A stretch of DNA of 64,000 nucleotides from Nitrospira sp. (GTDB taxonomy: Bacteria > Nitrospirota > Nitrospiria > Nitrospirales > Nitrospiraceae): positions 4,170,036 to 4,234,035 of the forward strand of contig CP060501.1 of assembly GCA_024760545.1 (NCBI GenBank). The letters are read 5' to 3'. How positions within the stretch are numbered: the first letter of the stretch is position 1; the number at the start of each line of letters is the position of its first letter. Positions 4,528 through 52,616 of the stretch are shown here, piece after piece. A program made the position numbers and the translations under genes. Under the pieces are notes generated by a model. That model saw only the letters and a program-made list of their open reading frames with translations. It was not told the origin of the DNA and did no database searches.

Positions 4528-4622
4528 ATTGTGTGGCAGCTAGGCTGACCCTGGAACATGTTCCGTCCCTGTTAAGGTCCCTCGGCTTTGCGTCCCACCC
4601 TCTCGGGTGGTTTGCCTTTTTC
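4528..4622 (-). promoter_or_regulatory. c-di-GMP-I (GEMM) riboswitch
   Basis: Read on the minus strand, the leader contains GGCAAACC, a hairpin ACCC-GAGA-GGGT with a GNRA loop, then GGGACGCAAAGCC, followed by GGGACCTTAAC, a short hairpin (GGAACATGTTCC), and GGGTCAGCCTAGCTGCC. This matches the GEMM core (GGCAAACC, GNRA hairpin, GGGACGCAAAGCC, then CCTAAAC and GGTAGC elements) in the right order and spacing. It lies about 85 nt upstream of the rod-like gene's start at 4443. ON or OFF behaviour cannot be read from the sequence. Confidence 0.9.
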
Positions 4623-4999
4623 ACCCTGTCGAACACTGTATCGGCTGTTCTGCCTGATACTTGAGCGAACGACTAGTTGAAGTGTAGCAGAAGCCGGTGT
4701 GTGGGAACTGCGAACGACCGCCACCAACCAGCAGGATCGAACACATAGGACGCAGGCAGACTGCTCACCTCAATCGAGGATGGCGAGTTCCTCCCGAACA
4801 CTTATAATGTGACACCCCTAGGCTTCTGGCTCAGATAATGAGTATAGGGGTATGCCAGGCCGCGACCAAACCTGTAACACTGACGGTCCTCGGGACAAAT
4901 CTCCAAGCACTGTTGCGAAACACCGAGTGATCATCGCATCGGGCGCCCCTTGTGAATGTCAGAGTAGACTCCGGCGAGCCACTTCTGTAAAGTGGCGCC

Positions 5000-10468: not shown

Positions 10469-10866
10469 GACATATAGACGCACCTGTTATTACTGTATGA
10501 CTGGCACGTGGATAGTCGGTCTTACATCCTCTTCGGCAGCTGCTCCTGGGCACCCTCCTCAAACTTCAACGCTGCCAGTAATCGGCTTGGTTCACGATCG
10601 CTCTCATTTAGTCCCGTCCTGAAGCGATTGCCGCTCCTCCGATTGTTCCTTTGTTTTTGCATTGGAGCATGCGTGGAGCAGCCGGTCGAGGAATTTCTTA
10701 AACTGAGACCGGGTGTTAATCTAAATACCTCCAGATCGGTACTCGGCCTAGGTCTTGGCGACTAATCGCATTGAAGGGGGGAATGCGTCCTGCATTCATG
10801 CCTTGGTCGGAATGTTAGGGAGTCTCCCAGTACCGGCCGAGACAAGAAGATGATAGCATGACAGAA

Positions 10867-10985
10867 GAACAGAGCAGTGGAAACATTACGAACCGGTAAC
10901 GGAAACGCTATCGAGGACATGATGTAAAAATTGCGCTGTTCGTGGAGGGCTCCGTTCCTGAAACAGGACGGAGCTTTCTTTTTGG
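10867..10985 (+). ncRNA. Structured RNA with terminator, copy 1 (upstream of usp gene)
   Basis: The segment is closed by GAACAG (10867) / CTGTTC (10936-10941). Inside are two hairpins, each capped by a GAAA tetraloop: CAGTG-GAAA-CATTA and CGGTAACG-GAAA-CGCTATCG. It is followed by a strong GC-rich hairpin and T run (10948-10985). A second copy at 40239-40346 keeps the stems, with compensating changes in the first hairpin. It sits 45 bp before the universal stress gene, so it could be a leader attenuator/riboswitch or a free sRNA. It does not match any riboswitch class I can recall. Confidence 0.7.
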
Positions 10986-11522: not shown

Positions 11523-11603
11523 GCCAAATCATTCTTTCCTATGGGTTTTCCCGGTTAGGTAACTCCTCGCAAACCGGTACGATGATTCTCGCAGGGGTAT
11601 GAC

Positions 11604-14954: not shown

Positions 14955-15245
14955 CCGTCCTTAGCCGACCAACACAAGCGCATGGAAGCATTCACGGTGC
15001 CTTTCACGGTGCTCTGTCTCCTGACTTCGTTAAAGATGTCCTATGAAGCCGCAAAGAAACGAGCCGAGCCGTACAACAAGATGGTGAGAGAGCTGCCGGA
15101 CATGCGGCGGGATACGATGGAGCTAGTGAAGACAGCGGTGGCAGAGAATCGGCGAGCCTACGTCATCGTCAACAACCGGTGCGAGGGGAATGCTCCGTTG
15201 ACGGTTCAGGCGTTAATGAATGCGCTGCAAGCAGTCGTGGACTGA
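14955..15245 (+). pseudogene. DUF72 C-terminal fragment, copy A
   Basis: The frame from 14955 reads SLADQHKRMEAF, then PFTVLCLLTSLKMSYEAAKK, and ends VNNRCEGNAPLTVQALMNAL plus seven residues. It matches the last third of the DUF72 (YecE-like) gene at 23296, but about 210 N-terminal residues are missing. Like copy B, it is preceded by the divergent DUF3015-like lipoprotein, so it is a duplicated block that later lost its middle. Confidence 0.8.
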
Positions 15246-16024: not shown

Positions 16025-16438
16025 TTACACGGTCAGGGCCGCGCGGATGGCCTGGTATAACTCCTCTGGCGAGGCTTCCTTCGTCAGGTAGGCCGACGCG
16101 CCTGCGGCTTTCATGTCCTGAGCCACTGCGGCACTTGGATAAACCGAGAGCCCGATAATGACGATCTTGGGGAGCGTATCCTTGATCCACCGCGTCGCTA
16201 CGATGCCGTTCATCCTGGGCATGCTCACATCCATTAAGATAACATGGGGCTGCACCTGTTGCGCCAACACGCAGGCCAGCTCTCCGTTTTCTGCTTCTCC
16301 GACCACCGTGAACTCACCAGAGGCATTCACCATGTTTCGCAACTCCTGGCGGATCAGGCGATGATTCTCGACCACGAGCACGCGAACGGGCTGGGATGAT
16401 TGTGCACTGGAGTTGTCGGAATCGGGGTTACGTTCCAT
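16025..16438 (-). CDS. Receiver-only response regulator
   Basis: 137 aa: a single REC domain preceded by a 16-residue polar leader. The phosphoacceptor Asp is in [14 protein letters not shown], and the conserved Lys in AYLTKEAS. The acidic pocket reads VVENHRL, so one of the usual two Asp residues is Glu and the next Asn. It is closest in sequence style to NarL/LuxR-type receivers but ends at the domain boundary without a DNA-binding part, so it would signal through protein contact or be a truncated regulator. No histidine kinase nearby. Confidence 0.85.
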
Positions 16439-16798
16439 AGCCACACACAGCTGGACGAAGTGGTTTTATCCAAGAACCAAGCGGCGCCAGATTAGCTCAC
16501 CCTAACAAGAGATCATGCTAGGAGATAGCCTAGCGAGGAAATACGGCAAGCAACAGTAGGACAGAACGGGACGGGTAACGGCCGGAAACATCGGCAACGG
16601 GTCACTTACGATACTGGCGATTCACGACCTCACTTGATTCTGCACGTGAATTAATGATCGTTTCTGCCGCGAGGAGAGAGGCCACCCTGGCCCCGCTGGG
16701 AGAATGAAAGGTTCCCTCAGAAACGCCTTCACCTCGATCCGCATACCTCAAATAAGAGCTAGTTTTCTGAGCGAGCTGCCGGGCATAAGGCGATGAGG
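16439..16798. other. Stretch without a recognised gene
   Basis: 360 bp between the receiver gene and the zinc-ribbon gene. No supportable frame, RNA or repeat seen. It should contain the receiver gene's promoter. Confidence 0.4.
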
Positions 16799-17005
16799 TC
16801 AGCTTGGTATTCGATAATAAGTGAGAAGTGCTTCGTGTCCGCAGTTATCGCATATGCCCTGTTGAGTGAGAGGAAGCCTATCCTGACCGAGCACCGCAAA
16901 CTGGAAGAGGCTGGCCCTATAGTATTCAATTTGCCTTTCGGTCCTCGGAGTGATTGACGACAACCGGTCACTGCACTTCCCACAGTACTTGACTGTTTTA
17001 GTCAT
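16799..17005 (-). CDS. Two-CxxC zinc-ribbon small protein, family copy
   Basis: 68 aa. KYCGKCSDRL at the N-terminus, GICDNCGHEALLTYYRIP at the C-terminus, with a helical middle rich in Arg and Gln. It lies 37 bp downstream of another copy (17043-17231) in the same direction, so the two are probably co-transcribed. Function unknown. Confidence 0.75.
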   Translation of the reverse strand: MTKTVKYCGKCSDRLSSITPRTERQIEYYRASLFQFAVLGQDRLPLTQQGICDNCGHEALLTYYRIPS

Positions 17006-17042
17006 AGAATTCGTTGGAATGTGGCATGTGATTCCTGCGAGG

Positions 17043-17231
17043 TTAGCCTGGGAACTGAAAATAAATCAGACCCTCCGTCCGTCCACATTTATCGCATGTT
17101 CCCTTCATGTCGACTGGACGAAGCTGCCGGACACTAGTCCGGAAACGCCGAATACTATTTTCACTGCTGGCTCGTAACATCGATAACAAGTCAGAACATC
17201 TCGAACAGTATTTAACGGTCCTACTAGTCAT
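17043..17231 (-). CDS. Two-CxxC zinc-ribbon small protein, family copy
   Basis: 62 aa. KYCSRCSDLL near the start and GTCDKCGRTEGLIYFQFPG at the end. It is the first gene of a likely two-gene unit with 16799-17005. The C-terminal motif has changed from LTYYRLP to LIYFQFP, showing divergence with conservation of the cysteines, which argues for selection on the metal site. Confidence 0.7.
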   Translation of the reverse strand: MTSRTVKYCSRCSDLLSMLRASSENSIRRFRTSVRQLRPVDMKGTCDKCGRTEGLIYFQFPG

Positions 17232-17339
17232 GATTGCGCTTTCTTGGGAGTCAATTGCTTTGATTGCTTCTGGATGGTCGATTATCTAGGACTGGGTAGA
17301 AAGTGGTACTAGGACAATGCCTAGGACGATTACTAGGAC

Positions 17340-17460
17340 ATATGAGGGTAAGCCGCTGCTCAATCCAATCCTAACTTTCTCAACGCGAAGATCTTCAGGA
17401 TCTCGTCTGACGCCATTTCGCGACATGAAGTTTGAGCCGCATATCGTGGTTGTCTACCAT
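17340..17460 (+). pseudogene. Decayed DUF72 remnant
   Basis: The translation contains YEGKPLLNP and SRLTPFRDMKFEPH, which match YNGKPLF and LVLTPFREAKFHEH of the DUF72 gene at 23296, with the parts between them mostly deleted. Only a short relic remains. Confidence 0.55.
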
Positions 17461-23295: not shown

Positions 23296-24184
23296 ATGCC
23301 TCTTTCCCCGCTCGTTCGATTCGGGACTTCCACCTGGACCTATGAGGGCTGGCAAGGTCAGGTGTACCTGAGGCAGTACGCCAAGACGACCTTTGCACGA
23401 GAATGCTTAGGCGAGTATTGCCAGTATCTCTACAACGGGAAGCCGCTCTTTCGGACGGTCGGTAATGACTCCACCTTCTACCGGCCTCCATCCGCTAACC
23501 AGCTTCGCAAGTACCTGAACCAAATCCCCGAAGACTTCGAGATGTGTTTTAAGGTGTTAGAAGACATCACCATTCCTAGTTTTGCCACTCATTCCAGATA
23601 TGGGCTGAGAGCAGGCAAGCTAACCCCCCATTTCCTTGATGCCAAACTCTTTAGGGACCTGGTCCTGACGCCATTTCGAGAGGCAAAGTTCCATGAGCAT
23701 ACAGGGCCTTTCCTCTTTGAATTTCAGCGACATGGGTTTTCTGTGGAGGGGTTTTGTACCCGACTGGATGCGTTCTTTACTCAACTACCGAAGGAGTTTA
23801 AGTACGCTGTTGAAATTCGCAATGCTGGATTACTTGGTCCTGCTTACCGCCAAGTGTTAGAACGGCATGGGGTGGCTCACGTCTATAATCACTGGTGTTA
23901 CATGCCGTCGTTGGCAGAGCAGCACAAACGCATGGGAGAAACCTTCACAGCTCCCTTTACCGTACTGCGACTCCTCACCACCCTTGAAGATGTCCTACGA
24001 GGCAGCCAAGAAGCGGGCGGAACCGTATAACAAGATTGTGGGTGAACTCCCCGAAATGCGAAAAGATGCGGTTGCACTCATTCAGCAATCGGTCAAGGCA
24101 GCCAAACCAGCCTATGTCCTCGTGAACAACCGCTCAGAGGGGAATGCCCCTACCACCATTCAGGCATTGGTTGACATGATCTAA
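23296..24184 (+). pseudogene. DUF72 (YecE-like) protein with a frameshift
   Basis: The first 230 residues are a typical DUF72 TIM-barrel protein: VRFGTSTWTYEGWQGQVYLR, ECLGEYCQYL, NDSTFYRPPSANQL, FKYAVEIRN, YNHWCYMP. Near 23984-23986 one extra G in CTTGAAGATG shifts the frame, so the conserved end (KMSYEAAKKRAEPYNK ... VLVNNRSEGNAP) continues in the next frame to 24184. The fragment at 14955 has the uninterrupted version. It is either a recent pseudogene or a sequencing error. DUF72 function is poorly known. Confidence 0.85.
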
Positions 24185-24308
24185 ACTGTCTCCTTTCATG
24201 TTGTCGGCCTAGGGTTACTCCCAGTTCCGCGCCCCATCTCAGCCGATCAGACTTGATTTCCTTCCAATAAATAAATCCAACGCAGCTCACCATGCATGAG
24301 GTGCGATC

Positions 24309-24500
24309 ATGAGGATCACCGCTAAATTCTGTTCTCGGTGTCGTGAGAGGTTGTCGTACATCTAGACGAGGAATGACCTGGAGATACAGTTTTACTGGGC
24401 CAGCGTCCGCCGACCCGGTGCGGTCACGCAAGAGGGCCTCTGCGAAAACTGTGGGCGCAAGCAGATGCTGACCTATTATCAGCTCCCAAGCTGGCCTTGA
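24309..24500 (+). pseudogene. Zinc-ribbon family member with internal stop
   Basis: The frame from ATG 24309 reads MRITAKFCSRCRERLSYI, then TAG at 24363-24365, then TRNDLEIQFYWASV ... GLCENCGRKQMLTYYQLP. Both CxxC pairs and the tail are kept, so the loss is a single nonsense change. Confidence 0.8.
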
Positions 24501-24579
24501 GACTTGAGAATCTAGTCAGATTGTCTTGGGACTGACGACTCTTCACCGAGAACGATTCAATACTGCACAGAGGTGTTGT

Positions 24580-24903
24580 ATGAGAACATTCCTACCTTCG
24601 ATACTGGTGGTTGGACTGTTGGGCTCTGGACTCGGTGTGACTTACGCAGCCGATCCCTATCCAACAGATGCTATGGCGGGGAAGGAAACAAGTCCCAGCC
24701 TCAAGGAGCGTTTGACGGAAGACACCATTACAGGTCCCTTAATAAAAACAGAAGGTGAGTATTACTTCATCCAGGCCGATCGTGGGTTGCAGAGGATCCA
24801 CGTCGACAAAAGTACCCAGTTGGATTCTGTGAAGCCAGGCGACATGGTCCGAGCCTATGTGACAGACCAAGGCCATACGACGACCTTGCAACGTTTGAAG
24901 TGA
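24580..24903 (+). CDS. Periplasmic OB-like protein, HVDK family
   Basis: 107 aa from the ATG at 24580 (AGAGGTGTTGT upstream). Signal peptide MRTFLPSILVVGLLGSGLGV ending TYA. The domain reads GPLIKTEGEYYFIQADRGLQ, RIHVDKSTQLD, VKPGDMVRAYVTDQGHTTTL: small beta-barrel features. The same domain occurs twice in 31432-31941 and as fragments at 20389 and 29352. The role is unknown; it is probably a periplasmic binding or adaptor fold. Confidence 0.75.
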   Translation: MRTFLPSILVVGLLGSGLGVTYAADPYPTDAMAGKETSPSLKERLTEDTITGPLIKTEGEYYFIQADRGLQRIHVDKSTQLDSVKPGDMVRAYVTDQGHTTTLQRLK

Positions 24904-24975
24904 ATCAGTGTCGGAGCACGACACCAGGTTTTCACCCAGTGCCAGGCTGGATGTGAAAGTCATACTATGAAAGTG

Positions 24976-25034
24976 GAACAGCCAGTGAAAATATTATGAG
25001 ACATCCCTCCCTAATATAGAAACTGCGCTGTTTC
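24976..25034 (+). repeat. Degenerate short copy of the structured RNA
   Basis: GAACAGCCAGTGAAAATATT at the start and AACTGCGCTGTTTC at the end echo the outer parts of the RNA at 10867 (GAACAGAGCAGTGGAAACAT ... TTGCGCTGTTC). The second GAAA hairpin and the terminator are missing. Confidence 0.4.
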
Positions 25035-25927
25035 CATTAAACTCGGAGAGCATTGTCTTCTTTTAATCTCTTCAGGTCTCCTGACCTGTTCCACGAGGCC
25101 AACTCGCGAGATTTTCGAACAGATTTCTGAAAGTCACATCAGATTCACCCCGGCCTTGAGGTATGGGGCCTTGAGCACGAATCTGGGCTCAGAGTTGTAC
25201 CTATGAAGGCAAGAAGAGTGATACTGAGGCTCACAGGGAGTAGATAAAGAAAATGCCTTTTCTATCCGTGCCCCCACTTCTTGTGTCCTCCAATTTCAAA
25301 CGCCGGCCAATCGTTTGCTGACAGACGGTACCGTCGATGCACCCTTACTCTGTGATATATCCTCACTGAAAGACCTCCGGGACTCCACTGTCTTCGCGCA
25401 GTCGAAGAAACCGATCAGGTTATCTTCAATCAGTTTGTCGGTATGCGTTATGGGGAGGTGACTATGAAGCTGTGGGCTATGGATGTGTATCTGGTCCTGT
25501 GCGGTAAGTGGCATTGAGTTCGCGACTCCGTTATCGCTTTCTGCCGATGATCGAGACAAGGCGGAGGCAGGGCCCGGGTCAACATGGTGCCATCTCCATG
25601 CCTGTGAGATATATGGCGATGCAAGCGCCTATTGCGTGCATGGCTGCATAACCGTCCATATCCAAGATCCTGAGAAAGCAGCAAATACGCCTTACTTTAA
25701 ATGGCTCATAAGGGAGCGGGTAGGTTATATTAAAGGCCTTTTACGGTGTGTATTGCTCTTTGCCTCGTGGTGGAACATCCGTCGTGTTAGGCTTGGTGGA
25801 TTAAGGAGATGATTTCGGGCTATCCAGATATATATGTGTAGAGCAATTTGCTCCTGTTGCTTCGTGCCGCAGTCAACCCATCCTCTCGCTTGATCTGCGC
25901 CACCGAACGCACAGGAGGTACCATCCG
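25035..25927. other. Stretch without a supportable gene
   Basis: About 890 bp. Several overlapping frames of 60-110 codons on both strands lack ribosome binding sites and recognisable motifs. No repeat or RNA noted. Confidence 0.4.
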
Positions 25928-28033: not shown

Positions 28034-28318
28034 TTACTTAATTTCGTGGACCTTTCCTGTCACGGCGTCCACATAGACTTTGTAGGTAGATTTCCCCTCT
28101 ACGATCTCAATCTTGTAGACCACACGACCATCGTCTTTCCCAATATTCGCTTCAACTGTTTTGCCAGGGCGGGCCTGCTCCGCGGTTTTAATCGCGTCGA
28201 TCATGCTCACGGTGGATTTGTTACTCAGCTCTCGATCACTTTCGAAGAGGGCCCAGGCCGGCATCACCGTCCCAGCGAGCAACAGCAGCATTCCAGCCAA
28301 CAAACTAATCTTTTTCAT
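28034..28318 (-). CDS. PepSY-domain exported protein
   Basis: 94 aa. AAGGAG precedes the ATG. Signal peptide MKKISLLAGMLLLLAGTVMP ending AWA. The PepSY domain is seen as MIDAIKTAEQARPGKTVEAN, YKIEIVEGKSTYKVYVDAVT and GKVHEIK. PepSY proteins bind or inhibit peptidases or act as small periplasmic modules. Monocistronic. Confidence 0.9.
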   Translation of the reverse strand: MKKISLLAGMLLLLAGTVMPAWALFESDRELSNKSTVSMIDAIKTAEQARPGKTVEANIGKDDGRVVYKIEIVEGKSTYKVYVDAVTGKVHEIK

Positions 28319-29690
28319 TGAGTCACTCCTTGGTTAAAAGTCTAACGTCCATTTGATGGAATAGTATTATTCCTCTTACCTACCTTTTATACCTAGGCAA
28401 CCCCCTAAGTGAAACATCAGAAATTCGCGATTTCTTAAACATCGACCTTGTACCTTGCCGCGCGTTTCGATAGGCTTCTGAAAACCTGTGCGTCCGACCT
28501 GCTTTCATACCTGGCAGATCCTTTGAGCAGCCGCTGCGAAACGGAACGATGAGACTATCAAACGGTAGGTCTTAGGTGGGGAGGAAGTGTTCGAGATAAC
28601 TACCGGGCTGTGGGTGGATCAGGGGTGCACCGTAGGCTTTCGTATCACACGGTCTGTTCGATGGCATAGCCCAACGCATCAATCGAGCACTCTTTGGGCA
28701 AAGAGATGAACGCGCTGGCCGATTGCATTGTGATAACGGGCGCCAGTGTAGTGGCGTTGTGACGCTGGAAAGCGGGTATGGTCCCTCCTATTGCATTGCG
28801 TTTGACCAGCCTACGATCCGCAGCTCCGTCAGTGTTTCTGAAAGCTGATGAAGTCCCAAGAATGCAACAAAACCAGCAAGTCGTGGTGCTCTCCGACGCC
28901 GGCGCAGATCTCCGGCAGGCACGGGAGTCTTTCCATGTTAACGGCCATATATTCACGTCACCCTCCGCTTGACCCTTTCTTTAGCAGGCCATCAACCAAG
29001 GGCTCGCGAACGTGCGAGTAGGGATCGGCACGGAGATCTCGCGGGAACGGGAGCGAATCACGCACGGGTTGGGACAGGGTAACGTCGAGGAGGCACGCAG
29101 GCGGTTGCCCCATGCTCCCTGTCGGTTCCATGTTTACAGAACTCTCCCTCCGGCATTGGCAGAATCCAGAACGTCAAGGGGTTGATACTGTGGTCCACGG
29201 CGTGACCCAGAGCCCGTGTCGCAGGGCATTTACCCAGTAGGTCCTCCTGCTCACAAGGTCTATGCTCTAGATGTCGATACGGGCACTATTATGAAAGGGA
29301 GGATTTATGATTCAGCGAAGTCTTGAAATGGCGAGTAATATTCAATCAAGAATACAGACGGCGAACAGATAAAAGTGCATGTGGACAAGAGCACGAAGCT
29401 GGACAAGGTCGCAGACGGCGATATGGTCAAAGCCTACGTCGTACTATTGCTCCTCGGGTGCTCCTGAAGGAACTCGAGCGAAAATTCTACGGTCTTAAGC
29501 CCAATCGTCTCCTCGGATCTACAGTGGATGGGTGCCCCCTCAGAGAAAGCGGCGGGGGCGGGCATGCTGGGCAGCCCACCGCGTGGGGATGGGGCTACTT
29601 CTCAACCCGCAGTAATCTGGTCACATGGTCTTTATCGGTGGCCCGATTCCGGACATTGTCTTTACTCTATCACGCATAGGTGTTCTTACC
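28319..29690. other. Gene-poor stretch with relics
   Basis: About 1.37 kb. On the plus strand, 28870-28972 reads VVVLSDAGADLRQARESFHV then NGHIF, which recalls the DDE-type LSDG core of ISKra4-like transposases and may be a transposase relic (weak). A clearer relic of the HVDK family lies at 29352-29444. The rest has no supportable gene. Confidence 0.35.
29352..29444 (+). pseudogene. Internal fragment of an HVDK OB-like protein
   Basis: Reads NTDGEQIKVHVDKSTKLDKV then ADGDMVKAYV, matching the middle of 24580-24903. No start or signal peptide and no proper end. Confidence 0.7.
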
Positions 29691-30317: not shown

Positions 30318-30545
30318 GGCGCATGCGCGTCAGTATGCGATATATTTTACATTTCGGGACGATGATTAGACGCCTCTGATTACTGAAAGGCCACACGCGC
30401 GGTGACCTCCCCCCGGTTGTTAAGCCACATACTCAATTAGACTTGCATACAGTGACCCGCCCCGCGAATGTAGGCCGAACCAGATCTGCATGCAATAAGG
30501 GATATTCCTAGCTCCCAGGACGCGCGTTGAGAATATCGTGACGGA

Positions 30546-30785
30546 ATGGGACAGCACAATAAAGAGGCGTGTCCTGAGATCAAACAGCGTGTGGATGTGC
30601 TGGCGGAATGGATGCTCACCCATGGGCCCTTTGCCATGCAGGAACGACATCGTAACGCCAATTCAATGGAGCGGTTGTACTGGCATTATGGTTATCTCAT
30701 GGCACTGCAAGACATGCTCTCTATGGAACAAGGAGGCATCGAGCAAGTGGACCCTCCCATCACAGAAAAGGAGCGGGCATCATGA
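30546..30785 (+). CDS. Small hypothetical protein
   Basis: 79 aa. Acidic and helical, with HNKEACPEIKQRVDVLAEWM and SMERLYWHYGYLMALQDML. It overlaps the next gene by four bases (ATGA), so the two are translationally coupled. No family recognised. Confidence 0.6.
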   Translation: MGQHNKEACPEIKQRVDVLAEWMLTHGPFAMQERHRNANSMERLYWHYGYLMALQDMLSMEQGGIEQVDPPITEKERAS

Positions 30786-31324
30786 GCGAGCACAACGCAG
30801 TCGTCGCCATTTATGACACGCACACCGAGGCCGAGGCCGCCATCAAAGAGCTCAAGCGAGCATCCTTCAACATCACGAAGCTTTCAATCGTCGGGAAGGA
30901 CTACCACTCAGACGAACACGTGGTGGGCTATTACAACACCGGTGATCGGATGAAATACTGGGGCACACTCGGCGCACTCTGGGGCAGTGTCTGGGGGTTG
31001 CTCCTGGGCGCAGGGTTCTTCGCCATCCCGGGGATCGGCCCGGTGTTGATCGCGGGACCTCTTCTCGGGTGGGTCCTGGGGGCGCTTGAAGGGGCGGTCG
31101 TAACCGGGGGCATGACGGCGATTGGGGCAGGGCTCTATAGCTTGGGAATTCCAAAAGATAGCGTTCTCAAGTACGAAATGGCGCTGAAATCCAACAAGTT
31201 CATCCTGGTGGCTCATGGCACGGCGGACGAGGCCGCGCAGGCCCGAAAGATTCTCCACACGACACAACCGCATGTACTCGACACACATACGACGGTACCT
31301 GAAGAGAAAGGCGCCGTGGCCTAG
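30782..31324 (+). CDS. DUF1269 / general stress protein 17M-like membrane protein
   Basis: 180 aa. The N-terminal ferredoxin-like part VVAIYDTHTEAEAAIKELKR resembles the 17M/YflT domain. A glycine-zipper hydrophobic region follows (WGLLLGAGFFAIPGIGPVLI, GPLLGWVLGALEGAVVTG) and a second alpha/beta part (KFILVAHGTADEAAQARKIL). Likely associates with the membrane in stress. Coupled to the upstream 79-aa gene. Confidence 0.8.
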   Translation: MSEHNAVVAIYDTHTEAEAAIKELKRASFNITKLSIVGKDYHSDEHVVGYYNTGDRMKYWGTLGALWGSVWGLLLGAGFFAIPGIGPVLIAGPLLGWVLGALEGAVVTGGMTAIGAGLYSLGIPKDSVLKYEMALKSNKFILVAHGTADEAAQARKILHTTQPHVLDTHTTVPEEKGAVA

Positions 31325-32549: not shown

Positions 32550-32828
32550 ATGCCACGTCTGCGTCACACCGTCGAACAGATCCTCAGCAAACTGCGTGAA
32601 GCCGAAGTCGCCTTGAGCAAAGGCCAGCCGGTTGCGCAAGTCTGTCGAACCCTGAGCATCACCGAGCAAACGTACTATCGGTGGCGCAACGAGTACGGCG
32701 GTCTCAAAGTCGATCAAGTCAAGCGCCTGAAGGAGCTGGAACGCGAGAACAGTCGCTTGCAACGAGCGGTGGCCGAGCTGACCGTCGATAAGCTGATCCT
32801 GAAAGAAGCCGCGGAGGGAAACTTCTAA
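32550..32828 (+). CDS. IS3-family transposase OrfA
   Basis: 92 aa. HTH region RHTVEQILSKLREAEVALSK ... VCRTLSITEQTYYRWRNEYG and a leucine-zipper tail (LKELERENSRLQRAVAELTV). Intact, but cannot transpose without the broken OrfB. Confidence 0.9.
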   Translation: MPRLRHTVEQILSKLREAEVALSKGQPVAQVCRTLSITEQTYYRWRNEYGGLKVDQVKRLKELERENSRLQRAVAELTVDKLILKEAAEGNF

Positions 32829-32851
32829 GCCCAGCGCGCCGACGGCAGACG

Positions 32852-33661
32852 GTGGACCACTGCTGCGTGACGCTGGGCCTCGCCGAACGCCGCGTCTGTC
32901 GCGTGCTGGGCCAACCGCGCTCGACACAACGCTATCAGCGTCAGCCCCCGGATGATGAAGCGCCGCTGACTGCGGCCATCATCCGGTTGGCGAGCCAGTA
33001 TGGCCGCTATGGGTATCGCCAGGTGACCGGATTGCTGAGGAACGATGGCTGGCGGGTGAACCATAAGCGTGTGGAACGGATCTGGCGGCAAGAAGGGCTG
33101 AAGGTGCCGAAGAAGCAGCCGCCGCGTCGGCGGCTCTGGCTCACGGACGGTTCCTGCGTGCAACTCCGAGCGGAACGGCCGAATCACGTCTGGGCGTATG
33201 ACTTCATGGCGACTCGGACGGAAGACGGACGTCCAGTGAAACTGCTGACGATTGTGGATGAATACACGCGGGAGTGTCTGGCCATTGATGTGGCGCGACG
33301 GTTGCGATCGGACGATGTCCTCTTTCGACTTGCGGAGTGATGTGTCCAGCGTGGGGTACCACGACATAGTCGCTCGGATAACGGCCCCGAGTTCGCCGCC
33401 AAGGCAGTGCGCGAGTGGCTCTAGCGCGTCGGCGTGCAGGCGCTCTTCATCACCCCAGGCAGTCCGTGGGAGAACGGCTATATTGAAAGCTTCAACGGAA
33501 AGTTACGGGATGAACTGTTGGATCGGGAGTTGTTTGCTACACTCTGGGAGGTCCAGGTGCTCGTGGAACGGTGGCGCCCGACGTATAACCGGATTTGGCC
33601 CCATAGTGCCTTAGGCTATCGTCCACCCGCTCCGGAGTCCATCGTGCCGCATTGCGCATGA
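32852..33661 (+). pseudogene. IS3-family transposase OrfB, broken
   Basis: The first part (AERRVCRVLGQPRSTQRYQR ... HVWAYDFMATRTEDGRPVKL, first catalytic Asp) ends in a TGA at 33338-33340 after a frame shift. The rest contains SDNGPEF with the second Asp, an in-frame TAG near 33422, and SPWENGYIESFNGKLRDELL with the catalytic Glu, ending at 33661. At least one frameshift and one stop. Confidence 0.85.
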
Positions 33662-39682: not shown

Positions 39683-40238
39683 ACCTTTACTGCTTATGCG
39701 CTTGTTGACTAAATGTTGCTTTACGAACCAAGCAATTAAATTCAACTGCAGCACAAGGCATGCCACCCGGCAGAACCATTGCTCAAATACACCATCATCT
39801 TGATGCAACTCCCTGAAAGTTTGGAGAGATACATCCAACGTGAGAGTTCGTAGAACCTAAAGTTGATATATGGCGAAGTGAAGGATATGACCTTCATCGC
39901 CGACAGTCACCAGAGTTCTTTAGATGATGTTGGCCAACAGGCTGGAGAATGGTTATACCCGACCGTGGCCGCGCTGATGTTATCGGCACGCTGAGATTTC
40001 GGGGCGGTTGGAGACTAATAGATTGAATTTATTCACTGAGGCCATGTCGGGCGTTCCCAAATCCTGTTGTTCAGTAACACGGTATTTACATCTCTCTAGC
40101 GTTGATGCCCGATCCTTATCCCAGGGGTCTGCCTAGTGTGATAATCATACAAGACAGACCTTCACTCTCATTGTAGCTATACATGTGTGTATACCAATAT
40201 TGGTTGAGACATGAAAGCGGTAGCATGACTTTAGAACG

Positions 40239-40346
40239 GAACAATGGAAACATTGTGAACCGGTAACGGAAACGCTATCGCCTGATGTAAACTTTGCGCT
40301 GTTCGATGAAGGCTCCGTCCTTGTGAGAGGACGGAGCCTTCTTTTT
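40239..40346 (+). ncRNA. Structured RNA with terminator, copy 2 (upstream of GNAT gene)
   Basis: Closing stem GAACA (40239-40243) / TGTTC (40300-40304). Hairpin CAATG-GAAA-CATTG is perfect here. CGGTAACG-GAAA-CGCTATCG is identical to copy 1. The terminator has a perfect 12-bp stem AAGGCTCCGTCC / GGACGGAGCCTT and C-T5. Upstream flank TAGCATGAC is shared with copy 1. It lies 45 bp before the acetyltransferase ATG. Confidence 0.7.
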
Positions 40347-50670: not shown

Positions 50671-52050
50671 GTGCCGCGGCATTTCGATGCCATCATCATC
50701 GGGACTGGTCAGGCAGGCCCGGCTTTGGCTGCGCGGCTTGCGGCCGGAGGCATGGCAGTCGCCATTATTGAACGCCACGAGTTTGGCGGCACTTGTGTGA
50801 ATACGGGGTGTATCCCTACAAAGACTCTTGTTGCAAGCGCGTACGCGGCACATGTTGCCCGCCGAGGCCCCGAATATGGTTTTGCTGTCAATGGCGATGT
50901 GCGCGTCGATATGAAACGGGTGAAAGAACGCAAGGACGAAATTTCTGGACGGTCGAATAAGGGCGTGGAGGAATGGTTGCGAGGACTCAAAAACTGTACG
51001 GTGATCCAAGGCCATGCTCGCTTTCAGACGTCCCACACTGTGGTGGTCAACGATGATGTCCTGCAAGCCGAGAAAATTTTCATCAACGTTGGAGGACGCG
51101 CCTCTGTTCCCGCGATGCCGGGGATTCAAGATGTCCCATTTCTCACAAACTCTTCAATGATGGATGTCGACTTCTTGCCGGAACATCTCGTCATCATTGG
51201 CGGAAGTTATATCGGCCTGGAATTCGGCCAGATGTATCGCCGCTTCGGGAGTGAAGTCACGATCGTCGAAATGGGACCGCGCCTGATTGGGCGTGAAGAC
51301 GAAGATATTTCCGACGCCGTGCGCCAAATTTTGGAAGTAGAGGGGATACAGACCAAATTGAATGCGAAATGCATATCACTGGCGAAGCGCAACAGCGGTA
51401 TCGCTGTGGGCATCGGATGCGATGAGGGTCCGCCTGAAGTAGTAGGCACGCATGTCCTTCTGGCGGTGGGACGTATTCCCAACACGAACGACCTGGGGCT
51501 CGATCGGGCAGGGATTGCGACCGACCAACGAGGCTACATTGTCGTTGATGATCAACTGCAAACGAACGTGTCCGGCATCTGGGCCCTGGGTGACTGTAAC
51601 GGCCGCGGCGCCTTTACGCATACGGCTTACAACGATTACGAGGTCGTTGCGGACAATCTCCTGGGCGGAGACCACCGCCGCGTGTCGGACCGAATCCAGG
51701 CGTACGCTCTATATACAGACCCGCCATTAGGCCGATGCGGCATGACGGACGTCGAAATACGAAAGTCTGGGCGTGCTGCACTCGCGGCGAAACATCCGAT
51801 GAGCCGAGTGGGCCGGGCTGTGGAGAAGGGAGAAACCCAAGGTTTCATCAAAATCTCCGTTGATGCTGAAACAAAACACATTCTGGGTGCGGCGATTCTT
51901 GGGACCGGAGGCGATGAAGTGGTTCACGTGTTGCTGGACGTCATGTATGCAAAGGCGCCTTATACGGTCATACAGCGCGCAATGCATATCCATCCGACGA
52001 TTGCAGAGTTTCTTCCCACCGTCTTATCCAAACTGGAACCCTTTGCGTAG
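50671..52050 (+). CDS. Mercuric-reductase-like pyridine nucleotide-disulfide oxidoreductase
   Basis: 459 aa, GTG start after a perfect AAAGGAGGTG. FAD motif IIIGTGQAGPALAARL, redox pair C42/C47 in GGTCVNTGCIPTKTL, NAD motif VIIGGSYIGLEFGQMY, second FAD site GIWALGDCNGRGAF, and C-terminal His-Glu HIHPTIAEFLPTV. It lacks both the N-terminal metal-binding domain and the C-terminal Cys pair of true MerA, so it is a class I disulfide reductase-like enzyme, not proven to reduce mercury. Confidence 0.88.
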   Translation: MPRHFDAIIIGTGQAGPALAARLAAGGMAVAIIERHEFGGTCVNTGCIPTKTLVASAYAAHVARRGPEYGFAVNGDVRVDMKRVKERKDEISGRSNKGVEEWLRGLKNCTVIQGHARFQTSHTVVVNDDVLQAEKIFINVGGRASVPAMPGIQDVPFLTNSSMMDVDFLPEHLVIIGGSYIGLEFGQMYRRFGSEVTIVEMGPRLIGREDEDISDAVRQILEVEGIQTKLNAKCISLAKRNSGIAVGIGCDEGPPEVVGTHVLLAVGRIPNTNDLGLDRAGIATDQRGYIVVDDQLQTNVSGIWALGDCNGRGAFTHTAYNDYEVVADNLLGGDHRRVSDRIQAYALYTDPPLGRCGMTDVEIRKSGRAALAAKHPMSRVGRAVEKGETQGFIKISVDAETKHILGAAILGTGGDEVVHVLLDVMYAKAPYTVIQRAMHIHPTIAEFLPTVLSKLEPFA

Positions 52051-52124
52051 GAGGCAGCAATCGGCGGTCGACGCTACCGACGCGGATTGTTCCTAGTGAC
52101 AACACGCGTTCGAGGTATACAACC

Positions 52125-52616
52125 ATGAGCAGCTCACGGAAGACAGCCATCTTGACCGGAGCCTCGCAGAGGATCGGCGCGGGAATCGTGAAGGGGTTTA
52201 TCGACCGAGGTTTCAACGTCGTTTCCAATTCCCGGAACGTGACCCAATCCAGCGAGGTCGTGGCTTCCAACCAGGTCGCTCTGGTGGATGGCCATCTTGG
52301 CAAACCAGCCACTGCAGCCGAGATCATCCAGACGGCGTTGTCTCGCTTCGAGTCGATCGACGTACTGGTCAATAACGCCGGTATCTTCATCAACAAGCCG
52401 TTCATGGATTACACCGCCGAAGACATCAGAGTGCTCGTCTCGACGAACGTCATGGGCTTCTTGCACATCACTCAACTATCCATCAAACAAATCTTAGCGC
52501 AAAAGACCGGCGGGAGCATCGTCACGATCACGACAGCTCTTGCTCGCAACCCGATTCTGGGCGTGACAGCGGCGATACCGATTGGTCCTAGGATATGTCA
52601 TATCCCGGTTTTTTGA
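52125..52616 (+). pseudogene. Short-chain dehydrogenase, C-terminally truncated
   Basis: N-terminal 152 residues closely match the intact SDR at 61657-62385: AILTGASQRIGAGIVKGFID, LVNNAGIFINKPFMDYTAED, GGSIVTITTALARNP. The similarity stops at GVTAAIP (about 52582), and 10 foreign residues follow before the stop, so the active-site Lys region and the last 85 residues are missing. The joint coincides with the start of the TPR lipoprotein gene. Confidence 0.85.

Follow-up and report, generated by a model that had tools for sequence, protein, structure and literature searches.

Two look-alike sequences lie on the forward strand of the window (the whole 64,000-nucleotide stretch analysed, G000:C1:4170036-4234035), and a covariance model built from 19 copies places them at 10866-10983 (copy 1, 124.9 bits) and, terminator included, at 40233-40346 (copy 2, 110.7 bits). 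In copy 1, helix P1 pairs 10867-10872 with 10936-10941 and P2 pairs 10874-10878 with 10930-10934; an internal loop (10879-10882/10926-10929) leads to P3 (10883-10888/10920-10925) and P4 (10894-10901/10906-10913), which is capped by a GAAA loop at 10902-10905, and an intrinsic terminator with a stem sequence conserved family-wide follows at 10947-10983. From the end of the terminator to the next ATG on the same strand there are 47 nt at copy 1, where the gene encodes a Usp-family protein, and 44 nt at copy 2, where it encodes a GNAT protein; an earlier note on this DNA had reported both starts, at 45 bp. The note's description of the pair is borne out, since the common TAGCATGAC flank, a second hairpin that does not differ between the copies, and both terminators are present, and we think the flank is best read as the -10 box and start-site region. 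The degenerate piece that it had seen is a third copy at 24975-25062 (+; 28.0 bits, E=7e-5 in the window), in which the P4 hairpin and the terminator stem are lost. Folding compared with shuffled sequences gave z scores of -7.3, -6.1, and -4.2 for copies 1, 2, and 3, respectively. The note could match the element to no known class, and when Rfam 15 was searched at gathering and relaxed thresholds, no family reached the gathering threshold for it, and the best sub-threshold matches were far below and mostly over the terminator. The window's only Rfam gathering match is a c-di-GMP-I-GGC riboswitch (RF03167) at 4531-4625 (-), at 68 bits.

From sequence comparison, we conclude that the two window sequences are copies of a previously unlisted family of small-RNA (sRNA) genes in Nitrospira. 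A covariance-model search of 175 Nitrospiraceae genomes confirmed a conserved structured RNA with a terminator and many homologues with covarying stems. The window's genome (4.8 Mb) has 15 model matches and a second genome of the same species has 10, with 8, 7, 5, 4, and fewer in others; the matches total 61, about 58 of them credible once three fragments are dropped. They are found in 22 of the 175 genomes, about 21 of these being credible carriers (the single match in G023 is marginal), and the carriers include the sister genera g12, g14, g17, and g141. A broader sample of the phylum yielded nothing convincing outside Nitrospiraceae, where a weak match in another family (L088), consisting of the outer stem and terminator only, was discarded. 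When all species genomes were scanned with 17-mers, only Nitrospira records gave model scores above 100 bits, and the public contigs with strong matches carry the name Nitrospira sp. Plasmid and phage collections held no copies; three chance 17-mers in viral contigs were followed up, and none matches the model. In the open-access literature, outside which most subscription journals lie, we found no paper on a regulatory small RNA in Nitrospira or on this element, and nothing relevant to the element in its REP-type literature. Nitrospira matter as nitrite oxidisers both in soils and in water treatment.

The alignments support a structure consisting of one long irregular hairpin followed by the conserved terminator. 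The hairpin comprises the P1/P2 stem, a symmetric 4x4 purine internal loop (mostly GGAA opposite AAAA), P3, and P4 with its tetraloop cap, which is GNRA in 54 of 57 copies (GAAA 43, GAGA 6, GCAA 3, GUGA 2). Among the unpaired positions, conservation is highest in GGAA, AAAA, and the GNRA loop; nearly all of the RNA is helical, leaving almost no single-stranded seed. We used three alignments: A1, a structure-blind MAFFT alignment; A2, the 61 model-aligned matches; and A3, a second structure-blind MAFFT alignment of 25 diverse copies. In A1, helix P3, which exists in the long hairpin only, is paired in 97.4% of cells, and the double changes (33 versus 12.9) agree with the long hairpin. RNAalifold returned the same hairpin from A3, where double changes back 13 of 22 pairs. 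In A2, 91.1% of cells are paired, double changes occur in 32 of 36 pairs, and there are 270 double-change cells versus 83.8 in shuffles; these A2 counts lean towards the model that aligned A2, whereas A1 and A3 are independent of that model.

The earlier note had proposed a three-way junction with paired GAAA hairpins, which minimum-free-energy folding, RNAalifold, and covariation do not support, favouring the long hairpin over hairpin 1. The first-hairpin changes that it had taken as compensating (CAGTG/CATTA to CAATG/CATTG) are two one-sided wobble changes, and no pair in that hairpin is changed on both sides between the window's two copies. Hairpin 1 shows one double change in 95 cells of A1, compared with 8 in the single P3 column pair 20/62 of the long hairpin (C-G 10, U-A 8, U-G 1).

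Alignment of the upstream sequences revealed a block, TAGGGNNTTTNCCNAGTAC, followed by TAnnnT before the RNA, which we describe as a putative operator (consensus CTAGGG-N5-CCnAGT) and a -10 box at fixed spacing. Allowing at most 3 mismatches, the operator is found in 44 of the 58 credible copies, all 44 of which have TAnnnT at an offset of 36-41 (shuffles, 0.17%); the remaining 14 or so, including window copy 2, have a weak operator. Copy 1 has the operator TAGGGAGTCTCCCAGT at 10816-10831 (+; PWM 36.4) and the -10 box TAGCAT at 10854-10859 (+), 38 nt from the operator start and about 7 nt before the predicted RNA start, and the predicted transcription start is the first base of P1. At copy 2, the same -10 box lies at 40221-40226 (+) and the operator at 40183 is degenerate (PWM 12.8) and fails the operator pattern test, while degenerate copy 3 is preceded by an operator-like sequence at 24925-24940 (+; PWM 17.8). 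In class II activation, the activator overlaps the -35 position. An operator centred near -41 and a -10 box with no recognisable -35 are thus what a promoter dependent on such an activator would show. Each copy would then be a complete small transcription unit, comprising an activator operator, a -10 box, a hairpin RNA of about 80 nt from the predicted start site, and an intrinsic terminator. Comparison among the copies shows the RNA with its structure, the terminator, and the promoter to be conserved together, and the RNA to be independent of neighbouring genes. Because every copy carries a terminator and most also have a stress-type promoter of their own, the family probably represents free-standing regulatory sRNAs, and not riboswitches of the adjoining genes; the independent sRNA that the note had named as its alternative is therefore the reading we support. 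One degenerate copy without a terminator (L047, G007:C29:58930-58972) differs from the other copies read in running straight into a ribosome-binding site and an ATG.

The same promoter class appears to be common to the sRNAs and to stress genes, and it clusters with two NarL/LuxR response regulators and a hybrid kinase. TAnnnT stands at this offset at 12 of 27 operator sites from other parts of the genome, where 1.3 would be expected (p=1e-9); searched on its own with one mismatch, the operator pattern shows no enrichment (33 matches versus 37 in the reversed control), so that enrichment appears only together with the -10 box. The window holds 8 sites with PWM of at least 13, among them the sites of copies 1 and 3, versus 0 in 10 resampled single-strand sequences, with a PWM trained partly on these same window sites. 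Genus-wide, the combined operator and -10 pattern gave 37 matches versus 6 in the reversed control, several of the matches being in closely similar conserved promoters. The regulon is sampled here through pattern searches and local stretches, and the figures are not an exhaustive count. Several of the window's other sites are found ahead of stress-type genes; two of them, without an sRNA, lie upstream of a YflT-type stress protein gene (site 30497-30512 (+), PWM 22.5; gene 30782-31324) and of a PepSY-domain gene (site 28392-28407 (-), PWM 14.4; gene 28034-28318 (-)), and with them the stress-gene setting suggested by the note holds up. In a 40 kb region (C1:30000-69999), the promoter is found near genes for a holin-like protein, DUF326, DUF2934/YtxH, a TPR protein, and a large hybrid kinase. 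Within it are genes for two response regulators (C1:50783-51424 and 51486-52148), each combining a receiver with a GerE (LuxR-family) domain, and a hybrid kinase containing HisKA_3 adjoins one sRNA copy. Superoxide dismutase and Ku are encoded in the region as well, by genes with no identified operator of their own. Near-identical promoters recur in several genomes, including two without the sRNA (G010 and G001), which suggests that the promoter class extends beyond the sRNA family; judging by sequence similarity, we take these recurring promoters to be that of the holin-like gene.

Given the inverted-repeat form of the predicted operator, its promoter position, and the gene neighbourhood, we infer that a NarL/LuxR regulator binds it. 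We consider it likely that the sRNA family belongs to a stress regulon, with a response regulator as its probable switch, and we are nearly as confident that the RNAs are transcribed and that a NarL/LuxR-type response regulator activates them within that regulon. The covariance-supported RNA family, a promoter signature for the candidate stress regulon, and two candidate regulators together make a Nitrospira stress response directly testable. Further stretches of the window contain regulon-type promoters or regulators. A strong promoter of this type (PWM 24.6) lies at 11540-11593 (+), immediately past the Usp gene, and neither a clear sRNA nor a long open reading frame (ORF) follows it. Others, at 16970-17340 (-) and 24210-24500 (+), precede similar small cysteine-rich (zinc-ribbon-like) multicopy ORFs. 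A single-domain response regulator receiver without an output domain is encoded at 16025-16444 (-), inside the stress island, and a similar one lies upstream of another sRNA copy (L038).

Among known systems, the family would work most like the CiaR-dependent csRNAs and LhrC, in both of which a two-component system drives sibling sRNAs; on the tests made, it is a homologue of neither. As in those families, multiple copies share a regulator-type site that is also found at protein genes. In the csRNAs, the site for the regulator immediately precedes the -10 box, and a terminator closes each RNA; CiaR recognises a direct repeat, whereas the Nitrospira operator is an inverted repeat and NarL/LuxR-like. 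Streptococci have several sibling csRNAs per genome in the CiaR regulon alongside protein genes, as described in two sources (PMC3091779, PMC8186281). The likeness is that of several sibling sRNAs per genome and protein genes in one response-regulator regulon, which in Nitrospira is a predicted one; the two differ in phylum, have no sequence relation, and differ in number, with 2-6 csRNA copies as opposed to up to 15 in Nitrospira, a copy number higher than in any of the sibling-sRNA families compared. LhrC of Listeria has five copies and needs the two-component system LisRK under envelope stress (PMC4132741), and is similar in being a multicopy sRNA tied to a two-component system, for which we have candidate regulators here. 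LhrC pairs via three CU-rich sites, and none is evident in the Nitrospira RNA. The LhrC Rfam model gave no credible match to the family, with one sub-threshold hit (20.6 bits) on the opposite strand. RsmX/RsmY/RsmZ and CsrB/CsrC are also duplicated sRNAs with an upstream palindrome under a LuxR-type response regulator (a role that is putative in Nitrospira) and with GGA in loops; they differ in having many GGA hairpins, whereas the Nitrospira RNA is one long hairpin with a loop conserved as GNRA and not GGA.

How such an RNA works is a question raised by the lack of a detectable Hfq: we found no match in the window's genome, using a search that was positive in 5 of 14 controls. We rank protein binding first, base pairing second, and CsrA sequestration as a special case. 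Because the RNA is nearly all helical, has hardly any seed, and comes from a genome with no detectable Hfq, our leading guess, which we hold tentatively, is that the RNA, once released, acts in trans, most likely as the partner of an RNA-binding protein that would contact the GNRA-capped stem and the GGAA/AAAA purine loop; many copies would raise the RNA dose under stress. It is somewhat doubtful that these stand-alone sRNAs instead pair with mRNAs, in the Hfq-free manner of LhrC and the csRNAs, through the purine-rich loops or the pyrimidine-rich terminator tail. Pairing is established for multicopy sRNAs that two-component systems control (LhrC, PMC4132741), and the CUCC of the terminator arm together with the tail CUUUCUUUUU could meet a Shine-Dalgarno or purine-rich sequence, but that tail aside, no conserved pyrimidine-rich stretch is left unpaired, conservation among unpaired bases being highest in the purine motifs and GNRA loop, and the missing Hfq also counts against pairing.

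CsrA is encoded in the window's genome, 45 of 57 copies have GGA in the internal loop and 45 of 57 have it at the apical loop, and the promoter logic is like that of GacA-Rsm. These features would suit a counterpart of RsmX/Y/Z under LuxR-type response regulator control, in which the GGA motifs sequester CsrA. We regard this as unlikely, and the reading is weakened by the loop and by the distribution of CsrA. The conserved apical feature is GNRA (including GAGA, GCAA, and GTGA), in a tetraloop and not the usual ANGGAN hexaloop, and the enrichment of core GGA is small (2.5 versus 1.9). CsrA is present in most RNA carriers and is widespread also without the RNA; with CsrA in 128 of 175 genomes and the RNA in about 21, CsrA does not track the RNA, and three genomes with RNA matches (G085, G070, and G232, two of the three incomplete) have no CsrA match. 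Returning to protein binding, a fuller scheme would be a Nitrospira stress response without a dedicated stress sigma factor, in which a NarL/LuxR-type regulator turns on stress genes together with as many as 15 copies of a GNRA-capped sRNA that works without Hfq and sequesters a candidate RNA-binding protein; taken as a whole, we find this scheme distinctly doubtful.

That the element is a dispersed repeat (MITE- or REP-like) with no cellular function is very improbable. Copies number up to 15 per genome, differ within one species (15 versus 10), sit in some cases in duplicated gene cassettes, and are sometimes degenerate, all of which would fit a repeat; against this are the compensatory changes across five genera, the conserved promoter-RNA-terminator unit, the single copies that a sister genus retains at one locus, and the absence of terminal inverted repeats or target duplications in a casual, not systematic, look.

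The note's main reading, a cis-acting riboswitch or attenuator of the downstream stress gene, is scarcely credible: a structure followed by a terminator resembles an attenuator and both intact window copies have a same-strand gene start within 50 nt, yet the strand of the downstream gene is random over the family, the downstream genes have no common function, and neither a conserved antiterminator pairing nor an Rfam riboswitch match was seen. Among ORFs called mechanically with a minimum length of 90 aa, the nearest one downstream is same-strand at 22 copies and opposite-strand at 24, and this equal frequency argues against a leader. In four genomes of sister genus g12 (L163-L166), the RNA lies just after hflX and the downstream genes differ, and in three species (L043, L052, and L053) it is divergent from the same HAMP-array protein gene. 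Where the second genome of this window's species has a homologue of the GNAT gene (88%), the similarity starts exactly after the copy 2 terminator, and the sequence before that homologue is unrelated and without the RNA. Since same-strand genes start within 50 nt, some readthrough is possible at the window copies of these otherwise free-standing sRNA genes.

Several sRNA copies have a gene for a small secreted protein family (...IHVDKSTKLD..VKAYVTDQGHTTTLQR; window 24526-24903, L035, L037, L039, and L182) 70-100 nt upstream, which suggests that the copies have partly spread with gene cassettes. A DUF72 gene is present in fragments (window 14982-15245 and 23296-24184, L034, and L040), and similar C-terminal fragments precede some sRNA copies. 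An IS3-like transposase remnant, judged by eye from ORF translations, lies at 32550-33614 (+) of the window.
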